From assembly GCA_026415675.1 (NCBI GenBank), contig JAOAGQ010000060.1, positions 1 through 64,000 of the forward strand: DNA of 64,000 bases. Direction: 5' to 3'. Each line of letters opens with the position of its first letter. The first letter of the stretch is position 1. Shown piece by piece: positions 14,650 to 17,043 of this stretch. The position numbers and the translations under genes were made by a program. The notes under the pieces are model-generated. The model saw only the letters and a list, made by a program, of their open reading frames with translations. It was not told where the DNA came from and ran no database searches. The stretch is from Syntrophorhabdaceae bacterium (lineage in GTDB: Bacteria; Desulfobacterota; Syntrophorhabdia; Syntrophorhabdales; Syntrophorhabdaceae).

Positions 14650-14949
14650 CTATTTTTTGAAATGTTTCAGGGCAAGGATCGGATGGTGGAAAACCATCCT
14701 CTTCCCCGAATACACCATCACCTCCCGTATCTTTTTACGCATATCCGGTTTATAGCAGTGTATCTTACATTCGCTACATTTAGGTTTCACCTCATGGGGG
14801 CATCTCTCAAGGCGTTCTTTTGCGTATTCGAGAAGGTTTTCGCAGTCTTCACAGTTCCCTGTTTTTGTTTGATGATTTCCCCGGCAGTATATCTCCACCA
14901 TCTTTCTCACTGTTTTAAGTTCTGTCTCAATGCTTCTTCTATTGATCAT
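14650..14949 (-). CDS. ygbA: YgbA-family (nitrous oxide-stimulated promoter) protein
   Basis: A 99-residue cysteine-rich protein that matches the YgbA_NO family: CRGNH, CEDCENLLEYAKERLERCPH, KPKCSECKIHCYKP, IREVMVYSGKRM and HHPILALKH. The regular Cys pattern suggests an iron-sulfur or zinc protein. In E. coli ygbA belongs to the NsrR regulon with hcp and other nitrosative-stress genes (established knowledge); its biochemistry is poorly defined. Here it starts 10 nt after the CooS-like gene, so the two are probably co-transcribed. Its own ribosome-binding site is weak, consistent with coupling. Confidence 0.85.
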   Translation of the reverse strand: MINRRSIETELKTVRKMVEIYCRGNHQTKTGNCEDCENLLEYAKERLERCPHEVKPKCSECKIHCYKPDMRKKIREVMVYSGKRMVFHHPILALKHFKK

Positions 14950-14959
14950 CCCGTTTAGT

Positions 14960-16867
14960 CTATTTAAGTCCCAGTTTTTTTCTTCTCTCTTCGATGTGGC
15001 CGATTACATTATCCACAGCCTTCATATAATCCCTCTCCACATTCATAACACCCCCTGTTAAGCCCCTTACCCCTTCTGTGAGAAAACCTACGAGATTTGG
15101 AGCCCCTGTAATTGTCGGCACAGGGTTGACATACGTGTAGAGGCCTAAGGCGAGGCTAAATATGGCATCGATAGTTGCCTTCTGTTCCATATACTCCGGG
15201 GCAACAACAGCAACAGGGAGATCAGGGATGGGTACACCCCCCATAGAAAAGGAGATAGCGGCAAGAAGGTCTGCTATACGACCCGTATCCGTACAGGTAC
15301 CAAAACTCAAAACGGGGGGTATCTTTAATAGTTCGCATAAGGCTTTAAGGCCTTCCCCTGCCTGGTCTTTTGCTTCGGGGGCACAAAGCCCGGCAACCTG
15401 CATGGCCCCATTCCCGCAGCCCATGGAAAGGACAAGCACATCCCTTTTTATGAGTTCTTTTGCCACCCTTACGGTGTGGACATCCTGACCCGAATCCCTA
15501 AGGGTGGTACATGAGACGAGGCCCACAACCCCCCTTATCGTTCCATTTGAAATTGCCTTTAGAAGAGGTTCCGGGGTTCCCCCCAGTATTTGGAGGATAC
15601 TCTCGGGGGAGTAACCTACTATAGCCTCCTTCAAAGGTAAACCCGTAACAGGGGTCACACCCTTTCTTCTCTCCTTGAAGTTTTCGATGGCCAACTCAAG
15701 GAGTGCCTTTGCCTGAACTTCCGCCTTCTCCGGTTCGTAATCGAAGCGCTCCGTTACTCCATCGAAGGATACAAGGGGAGTTACAGGTACAAGTTTAAAC
15801 CTGTATTTTTCTGCATATATGGGGTCTATGGGCATGGAACAGTTCATATCGCAGGCAAAGAGGTCTATACAACCCGAGGCAAGTATTGCCTCCTGCATGA
15901 TCCAGTTCCCTGTGAAACCGTAGAATATATCGTCCATCTCCCATCTCTGGATCATCTCCTGACCTGTCTCGATGTTGGCAATGACCCTTAATCCCTTTGC
16001 CCCTGCTGCTTTAGCCTTCTCCTGCCACTCAGGTTTTCTCGCCACATCCACCATGGCAAAACCGATGAAAGGCTCATGACCGTTGGGCAGTACATTCACA
16101 TAATCAGGGTCTAATACCCCGAGATCAACCCTCATGGGGTGGGGTTTCGGGGTTCCGAAGAGGATATCCTGACAGTACTCGTTTATAATCTGGCTCTGAT
16201 AGGCCATTGCGATGGAGAGGCGAAGCGCTTTTTTTGCAAGACTTTTATAATCCCCGTCCACATTGGTTAGACAGGAACTGGCCGCAACGAGCATCTCGCT
16301 GTATATACCCCCCGGCATGATCCCCAGCTTTTTCCAAAGGTCCGTTCTTTCCCTGGGGGCTAAGGTTTCCACAATATGGCTTGGCTCATCGTATTTCCTT
16401 GAAAAATCGACCTCAGCATAGTTACAGAGCATATAGGCCATCTCCTCGTAAGAGACGATTGTAGGTATCCCGAACCTCTCTACAAACTTTTCAAGCTTTG
16501 TCTTATCCGTTATCTTGAATGGACCCTTGCCGTCGATGGCGGCCTTTAATGTTTTTATCGTCTGCTCTGTGTGGTAGTGGTATGTGGAGGCTCCCATTAT
16601 GTTTCTTAAAAGCATCATCCTCATCGCCATACCATCGCCGGTGATACCGCAGACACCCCTTTTGTCTTTCGATACATCTGCCCTGCAGGGACCATTGGAA
16701 CAGAGGTCACATCTTACCCCTCCCTGACAGAAAGGGCATCTCTGGTCAGGGTTTTCCCCAAGACCCTGTGCCCTGTAACGGTCCCATATATTGGTTATAT
16801 TGTCTTCTTTTATCCTCTCGTACACCTTCTTTACCGATTCATGGTAAGAGATCCTCTCCTCATCCAT
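14960..16867 (-). CDS. Ni-CODH-fold (CooS-like) protein with altered C-cluster
   Basis: A 635-residue anaerobic carbon monoxide dehydrogenase homologue of full length. B-cluster cysteines are present (C53, C56, C61, C73). The D-cluster region has CPFC (C44, C47), and Arg occupies the usual second D-cluster Cys. Comparing with C. hydrogenoformans CODH-II from memory, C-cluster ligands H264, C343, C453, C484 and C525 and the catalytic Lys (K563) are kept. The Cys of GICCTGNE is replaced by Glu300 (NIETGQE). The His relay is reduced to one or two residues. CO oxidation is therefore doubtful; a hybrid-cluster-like redox role is an inference. No cooC, cooF or acs genes are nearby. Confidence 0.85.
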   Translation of the reverse strand: MDEERISYHESVKKVYERIKEDNITNIWDRYRAQGLGENPDQRCPFCQGGVRCDLCSNGPCRADVSKDKRGVCGITGDGMAMRMMLLRNIMGASTYHYHTEQTIKTLKAAIDGKGPFKITDKTKLEKFVERFGIPTIVSYEEMAYMLCNYAEVDFSRKYDEPSHIVETLAPRERTDLWKKLGIMPGGIYSEMLVAASSCLTNVDGDYKSLAKKALRLSIAMAYQSQIINEYCQDILFGTPKPHPMRVDLGVLDPDYVNVLPNGHEPFIGFAMVDVARKPEWQEKAKAAGAKGLRVIANIETGQEMIQRWEMDDIFYGFTGNWIMQEAILASGCIDLFACDMNCSMPIDPIYAEKYRFKLVPVTPLVSFDGVTERFDYEPEKAEVQAKALLELAIENFKERRKGVTPVTGLPLKEAIVGYSPESILQILGGTPEPLLKAISNGTIRGVVGLVSCTTLRDSGQDVHTVRVAKELIKRDVLVLSMGCGNGAMQVAGLCAPEAKDQAGEGLKALCELLKIPPVLSFGTCTDTGRIADLLAAISFSMGGVPIPDLPVAVVAPEYMEQKATIDAIFSLALGLYTYVNPVPTITGAPNLVGFLTEGVRGLTGGVMNVERDYMKAVDNVIGHIEERRKKLGLK

Positions 16868-16895
16868 GCTGACCCTCCTCTAAAAATGGTAAGCG

Positions 16896-16912
16896 ATAAT
16901 ATGACATTCTAT
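16896..16912. promoter_or_regulatory. Candidate operator over the cooS-like promoter
   Basis: The sequence ATAATATGACATTCTAT is an imperfect palindrome of the form ATA-N2-ATG-N-CAT-N2-TAT that covers the predicted -10 box. That position suits a repressor. I do not recognise it as a standard NsrR, HcpR or FNR site. Confidence 0.35.
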
Positions 16913-16934
16913 TACAGGATCGGTAAATATGCAA
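16906..16934 (-). promoter_or_regulatory. Predicted promoter of the cooS-like/ygbA operon
   Basis: Read on the minus strand, TTGCAT (16929-16934) and TAGAAT (16906-16911) are separated by 17 bp. The -10 differs from consensus at one base. A 17-bp near-palindrome (16896-16912) overlaps this -10. The ribosome-binding site GAGGAGGG lies 6 nt before the ATG at 16867. This is a visual prediction only. Confidence 0.5.
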
Positions 16935-16982
16935 GAAAACCCCTCCTTTTCTGATAGTCTTACCCTTCATCCTCTGGAGGGG
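16933..16982 (-). terminator. Possible intrinsic terminator of the GAPDH gene
   Basis: On the minus strand CCCCTCC and GGAGGGG (the reverse complements of 16976-16982 and 16940-16946) form a 7-bp GC-rich stem with a long 29-nt loop. It is followed by TTTTCTT. The long loop makes it a poor terminator. It abuts the next promoter, and the strong bases also fit a simple read-through barrier. Confidence 0.35.
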
Positions 16983-17043
16983 AAGTCCTATCAAAATTTC
17001 TACAGGGGTGCATCCCCTTTACGTTAAAAAATCCTGTCCTCTC

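Follow-up and report, generated by a model that had tools for sequence, protein, structure and literature searches.

What does a full-length carbon monoxide dehydrogenase (CODH) do when it carries a glutamate in place of a cysteine of its C-cluster? The question arises from the genome of a Syntrophorhabdaceae bacterium (GCA_026415675.1), in a 64,000-nucleotide stretch of contig JAOAGQ010000060.1 that was analysed as a whole and is here called the window. A minus-strand open reading frame at 14960-16867 of the window encodes a 635-residue CooS protein, matched at 715.6 bits by TIGR01702, the NCBIfam model for anaerobic CO dehydrogenase.

The glutamate and the cluster ligands

A sequence-only reading of this DNA had singled out codon 300 as a glutamate codon that replaces a C-cluster cysteine. 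The codon, at 15968..15970 on the minus strand, does read GAG; it lies within VIANIETGQE (15970-15968 in the direction of translation) and faces Cys295 of CODH-II. In a phmmer alignment Glu300 is paired with the glutamate of SIESGQE (Glu295) in CooS-V, or CODH-V (PDB 7b7q), and the other CODHs printed in the same alignment show the second cysteine of CCTGNE in this column; at the window site itself there is no cysteine. A cysteine was found at the site in eight sampled ordinary CODHs and in the second CODH of the same genome (L001), which keeps MCCSANE there. Among the relatives of the window protein, glutamate occupies the site in all 102 loci of the type examined, 22 of them from a search of the phylum and 80 (the best 80 of 450) from named genomes, with a few genomes counted twice. 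Because the residue is this constant, Glu300 is neither a chance change nor a sequencing error.

The remaining ligands that the same reading had listed are all in place, as residue checks against the alignment confirmed. His264 (16076..16078, minus strand, as are all residues given here) corresponds to the cluster ligand His259 of CooS-V, Cys343 (15839..15841) to Cys338, Cys453 (15509..15511) to Cys449, and Cys484 (15416..15418) to Cys480. Cys525 (15293..15295) aligns with Cys521, which forms a persulfide in CooS-V (PMC9311411). Glu561 (15185..15187) is the equivalent of Glu556 of CooS-V, the second glutamate of the hybrid cluster and a feature described in PMC6344411, and is followed two residues later by Lys563 (15179-15181); Asn342 is also present. 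Tyr96 (16580..16582) stands where true CODHs have the acid-base histidine, again a feature in PMC6344411. Towards the N-terminus, Cys44 and Cys47 (16727..16738) align with Cys38 and Cys41 of CooS-V, which hold the bridging D-cluster of type III in the terms of PMC6344411, and Cys53, Cys56, Cys61 and Cys73 (16649..16711) are those of the B-cluster. The window protein is thus predicted to keep the CODH fold, the B-cluster and the bridging D-cluster.

Membership of structural group D-1

Structural group D-1 was defined by Inoue et al. in 2019 by glutamate for Cys295, a type III D-cluster, tyrosine for the acid-base histidine and a glutamate two residues before the lysine (PMC6344411). Window CooS has Glu300 for the first C-cluster cysteine (Cys295), retains the C-cluster histidine with the four further cysteines (H264, C343, C453, C484, C525), has the CX2C of a type III D-cluster (C44 and C47, against C38 and C41 of CooS-V) and carries the set Y96, K563 and E561. 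It shares all the defining sequence features given in that paper, with no difference found. On these residues the protein is a further member of D-1, and the substitution singled out in the sequence-only reading is real but already known: CODH-V carries the same glutamate, and it is a hallmark of the group (PMC6344411).

Comparison with solved structures leads to the same place. Searched against all PDB sequences, window CooS matches CooS-V 7b7q best, at E 4.3e-201 with the next match at 1.1e-115, a ranking of matches rather than a tree of all CODH clades. An AlphaFold model (pLDDT 87.7), built from an alignment of the loci only, free of metals and used for the fold only, comes closest in the PDB to the two entries for CooS-V, at TM 0.95-0.96; the other CODHs listed, of the CODH-II and Desulfovibrio vulgaris CODH kind, reach TM 0.91-0.93 at about 29-36% identity. 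Window CooS and CooS-V are 50% identical over their full length and share every cluster ligand, including Glu295 and Glu556 of CooS-V, as well as the D- and B-cluster cysteines; they differ in organism and in gene neighbourhood.

The structure of CooS-V from Carboxydothermus hydrogenoformans (PDB 7B7Q; Jeoung et al. 2022, PMC9311411) gives these likenesses their meaning. Its cluster is a Ni-free, redox-morphing Fe/S/O hybrid with Glu295 as a ligand, and the enzyme neither oxidises CO nor reduces CO2. Hydroxylamine is reduced slowly, with a kcat of 0.13 per s, and NO reduction does not rise above background; the potentials lie about 300 mV below those of the hybrid cluster protein (HCP), from which the authors infer a different function (PMC9311411). 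The picture of CODH-V given in the sequence-only reading, a hybrid-like cluster without nickel or CO oxidation, agrees with this paper, and the suggestion that the glutamate might bind iron is borne out in the solved structure.

The window protein is of the CooS-V type and, as had been proposed, no ordinary CO dehydrogenase. Because every ligand is identical to that of CooS-V, it would not be expected to oxidise CO, as published for that enzyme. The opposite view, that it is a working CODH whose nickel C-cluster tolerates glutamate for cysteine, can call on the fold, the family model, the presence of K563 and five of the six ligands, and on Methanosarcina genetics cited as a hint of D-1 involvement in CO oxidation (PMC6344411). 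It is scarcely credible in view of CooS-V, which has neither nickel nor CO activity (PMC9311411), and of the published C295E mutant of CODH-II, in which nickel and CO activity are lost and hydroxylamine reduction is gained. Functional Ni,Fe-CODHs combine complete C-cluster ligands with the acid-base histidine; CODH-II and D. vulgaris CODH share the fold and five of six C-cluster ligands with window CooS, whereas their Cys295 and acid-base histidine are here Glu300 and Tyr96.

HCP, of classes I-III, offers the other comparison. The probable cluster type and the set of glutamate, histidine and cysteine ligands are shared with it, as is, in other genomes, the neighbouring gene for the ferredoxin FrdX. 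Window CooS differs in having the CODH-type dimer and D-cluster and in going unmatched by TIGR01703, the family model for HCP, at E 0.001, and its genome has a separate true HCP. FrdX, a frequent though not defining neighbour of HCP, is absent beside the window gene.

Distribution of D-1 proteins

Matches to window CooS at E 1e-100 or better were found in 67 of 395 genomes of the same phylum. A D-1-type protein (above 600 bits) is present in 22 of these 67, and all 22 have the glutamate. Scanning named genomes added 80 D-1 loci (the best 80 of 450), which span, among others, Syntrophorhabdaceae, Chloroflexota, WOR-3, Actinomycetota, methanogens, Thermoplasmatota, Bathyarchaeota and Asgard archaea. 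By the named proteins next to window CooS in the D-1 tree described below, its organism would most likely be a relative of Syntrophorhabdaceae. A search of viral contigs returned nothing.

Several further genes recur around D-1 genes. At 16 loci the gene after cooS, on the same strand, encodes an MFS transporter (L009-L012, L065, L066, L068, L070-L074, L076, L079, L083 and L097), in the place taken by ygbA in the window. Small cupin genes lie near cooS at L085, L087, L104, L114, L123, L127, L128, L131, L139 and L144. The passages of PMC6344411 on D-1 neighbours name COG1063 and HypA/HypB, FrdX and YgbA being unnamed in them.

The second CODH of the window genome (L001, contig C34) is an ordinary one, with its cysteine pair intact, and is preceded by a gene named by eye as CdhD-like. 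Since an ordinary CODH follows such a gene, the carbonyl branch of the Wood-Ljungdahl pathway is probably present in this organism.

The YgbA neighbour

Immediately downstream of window cooS, after 10 bp and on the same strand, lies a gene of the YgbA_NO family encoding 99 residues (14650..14949, minus strand; PF11756, E 2e-37), and the two probably form one operon. It is the single PF11756 match in the whole genome. In Salmonella NsrR represses both ygbA and hcp, and ygbA was without known function at the time of that report (PMC2884951).

The idea that D-1 CooS has YgbA as a conserved partner was rejected, as YgbA occurs in none of the other D-1 loci checked for it; co-occurrence of YgbA and D-1 was rejected as well, since only one of the 395 genomes of the phylum has both. 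That the pair is private to the window genome counts against an HCP-like reductase. Elsewhere in the phylum, at least 11 of 71 YgbA genes have frdX within 300 bp on the same strand, which counts for a nitrosative role. These pairs, 40-294 bp apart, are in G025, G063, G098, G153, G225, G246, G287, G311, G325, G343 and G362. At a further locus (L151; G395, contig C221) frdX has a YgbA_NO gene next to it; this genome is HCP-negative and carries its D-1 gene on another contig.

The privacy of the pair also raises the possibility that the window copy is drifting and that its neighbour is a chance insertion. In a tree of 82 D-1 proteins the end branch leading to the window protein is long, at 0.36 where the median is 0.12, and all ligands are intact. 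Drift of this kind is nevertheless very improbable: the reading frame is open over its full length, every ligand and pocket residue is in place, and the 10-bp same-strand spacing looks operonic.

FrdX neighbourhoods and HCP

When the neighbours of D-1 genes were clustered, the most frequent family was a 2[4Fe-4S] ferredoxin whose C-terminal region is long. This ferredoxin is homologous, over its full length and at about 35-47% identity, to the product of the gene directly downstream of the window genome's own hcp. Ferredoxin genes adjoining hcp were named frdX by Rodionov and others (PMC545781, PMC1274295); the name is used here by position and by homology to the hcp-adjacent gene rather than by comparison with the Clostridium difficile or Desulfovibrio sequences. 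In C. difficile NO induces frdX, and knocking the gene down makes the cells sensitive to NO (PMC12915319). No report of a link between D-1 CooS and FrdX was found in print, the search lying outside supplements and most subscription journals.

FrdX was searched in 71 genomes, and HCP and the D-1 protein in 70 after removal of one duplicate. An HCP match is present in 21 of the 70 genomes and absent from 49. Of the 49 HCP-negative genomes, 22 have FrdX no more than 3 kb from the D-1 gene, as against 1 of the 21 HCP-positive ones (23/70 overall; Fisher p 0.0008, a value that ignores relatedness). The HCP-positive genomes have FrdX beside HCP in 10 of 21 cases and elsewhere in another 10, and none lacks it (0/21); in the HCP-negative genomes it is elsewhere in 16 and absent from 11 of the 49. 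Within the phylum of the window alone, FrdX is near the D-1 gene in 3 of 5 HCP-negative and in none of 16 HCP-positive genomes. No FrdX was found within 3 kb of any of the 33 other CODH genes of the same genomes, and a given gene would be expected that close to a lone FrdX in 2.5 Mb with a probability of about 0.35%.

FrdX is at most 400 bp from the D-1 gene in 18 of the 49 HCP-negative genomes. The count of 22 includes three cases at 1.6-2.6 kb (G011, G085 and G441) and one, G431, whose FrdX is on the opposite strand and adjoins another D-1 copy of 53% identity. Excluded from the count were further fragments of a FrdX gene already listed, the duplicate G424 (the same place as G011) and four rows of CODH fragments. 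FrdX counts came from the genome-wide searches and the comparison of the 102 loci, the neighbour clustering having misplaced CooS in L014, L019, L020 and L021.

On the D-1 tree, made by a quick method after identical proteins and 15 loci with too little flank had been dropped, FrdX is upstream for 17 of the 82 proteins, downstream for 11 and missing for 54, with weak ferredoxin matches (about 40 bits) at L087, L091 and L105 coded as none and L014 and L015, on the basis of the genome-wide searches, as upstream. At least 13 changes are needed to explain this pattern, and the starred branches by themselves require at least 5. Since the tree shows repeated change, the FrdX neighbourhood was not simply inherited once; it arose or was lost many times, in both gene orders.

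FrdX and HCP are strongly associated across the 395 genomes of the phylum: 232 have both, 43 HCP only, 41 FrdX only and 79 neither. HCP, FrdX, YgbA and D-1 CooS share neighbourhoods pairwise. Whether D-1 replaces HCP is a further matter. Seventeen of the 22 D-1 genomes of the phylum also carry HCP, which counts against replacement, and a published survey finds the highest CODH-HCP co-occurrence in clade D, which likewise argues against simple replacement (PMC13056359). When relatedness is controlled, the independent pairs relating HCP absence to the FrdX neighbourhood are few, 2 on starred branches and 5 in all; for want of enough such pairs, replacement is suggestive only.

HcpR-like sites

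In the window genome the true hcp (L002:1501-3108, contig C70), followed by frdX (L002:3198-3953), is separate from the D-1 gene. It is preceded by a near-consensus HcpR palindrome, TTGATTTAAGTCAA (L002:1411-1424), with 1 mismatch and 77 bp before the ATG. The gap upstream of window cooS, where a promoter site would be expected (16868..17043, minus strand), contains no HcpR-like palindrome, the best candidate having 3 mismatches.

Such sites precede none of the 28 D-1 genes with a nearby match to the FrdX profile, a set that included the weak match L105, and 3 of 59 other D-1 genes (L025, L026 and L115), with a maximum of 1 in shuffled sequences. The three palindromes have 0, 1 and 0 mismatches to TTGACNNNNGTCAA, at -91, -88 and -136 respectively, and have no FrdX nearby. 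Little weight is placed on them because two of the three genes are close relatives. In Desulfovibrio desulfuricans, Ddes_0382, a cooS gene, is among the NO-responsive genes, with a value of 2.01 (PMC5701242).

A proposed role

Because of the FrdX and YgbA neighbourhoods we infer an HCP-like role in nitrogen-oxide reduction, and with it a donor and a substrate: window CooS is somewhat more likely than not a hybrid-cluster reductase of the CooS-V type that protects the cell from reactive nitrogen, or from redox stress in general. A Ni-free [4Fe-3S-nO] cluster would be held by Glu300, Glu561, His264 and Cys343, Cys453, Cys484 and Cys525. An HCP-type ferredoxin, FrdX, would deliver electrons to the D- and B-clusters; reduction of the hybrid cluster would open a gas channel, and a small nitrogen oxide (NO, NH2OH or a relative) would bind and be reduced, the cluster taking up oxo ligands before being reduced again. 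In genomes without HCP, the D-1 gene often stands where HCP would be, beside frdX. In the window genome hcp and frdX are located elsewhere and the D-1 gene is paired with ygbA. The presence of all cluster ligands of solved CooS-V, and the rank of CooS-V as best PDB match by both sequence and model, speak for a reductase; the weak chemistry of CooS-V, and the absence of FrdX and of an HcpR-like site at the window copy, speak against it.

The low potentials of CooS-V, far below those of HCP (PMC9311411), also suit a hybrid-cluster reductase for some other substrate, such as peroxide, an S-nitrosothiol, a sulfur compound or an unknown low-potential acceptor, serving in general redox stress. Where FrdX stands alone in D-1 genomes, its neighbours include genes for desulfoferrodoxin, hemerythrin, rubrerythrin and Crp-type regulators, and such neighbours fit general redox stress as well as NO; the first three lend this alternative some support. 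We nonetheless consider it unlikely, as published work links both FrdX and YgbA with responses to NO (PMC12915319, PMC2884951) and their genomic settings link them with HCP.

The same protein might instead act as a sensor or regulator of redox state or NO, with turnover incidental. This would accord with the very slow turnover of CooS-V and the change in shape of its cluster with redox state (PMC9311411), with the proposal of redox sensing or regulation for clade D in the 2026 survey (PMC13056359), and with the genes for Rrf2-type regulators upstream of nine D-1 loci, which are other than, or overlap, the cupin loci. Family model searches found no DNA-binding or signalling part in window CooS, however, and a dedicated ferredoxin neighbour together with the full chain of B- and D-cluster cysteines fits a reductase better, so that sensing is rather unlikely.

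For the group as a whole, the D-1 'CODHs' could be a second, convergently evolved hybrid-cluster enzyme that uses the electron-transfer module of HCP, is reduced by FrdX and replaces HCP in nitrosative defence in many HCP-less archaea and bacteria. We advance this tentatively, as a possibility that falls somewhat short of probable.

Implications

The window protein is itself ordinary for D-1, and its substitution was already explained. Clade D CODHs nevertheless carry the annotation of CO dehydrogenase, and caution is due before such genes are read as CO metabolism. In the 2026 survey no clear pattern emerged among the genes around clade D CODHs, and experimental proof that they act in stress was described as missing (PMC13056359). 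For D-1, both an electron donor and a stress in which it may act are suggested in concrete terms by the neighbouring FrdX and YgbA genes and, if the proposal is true, the FrdX neighbourhood would give this orphan group a testable partner and role.
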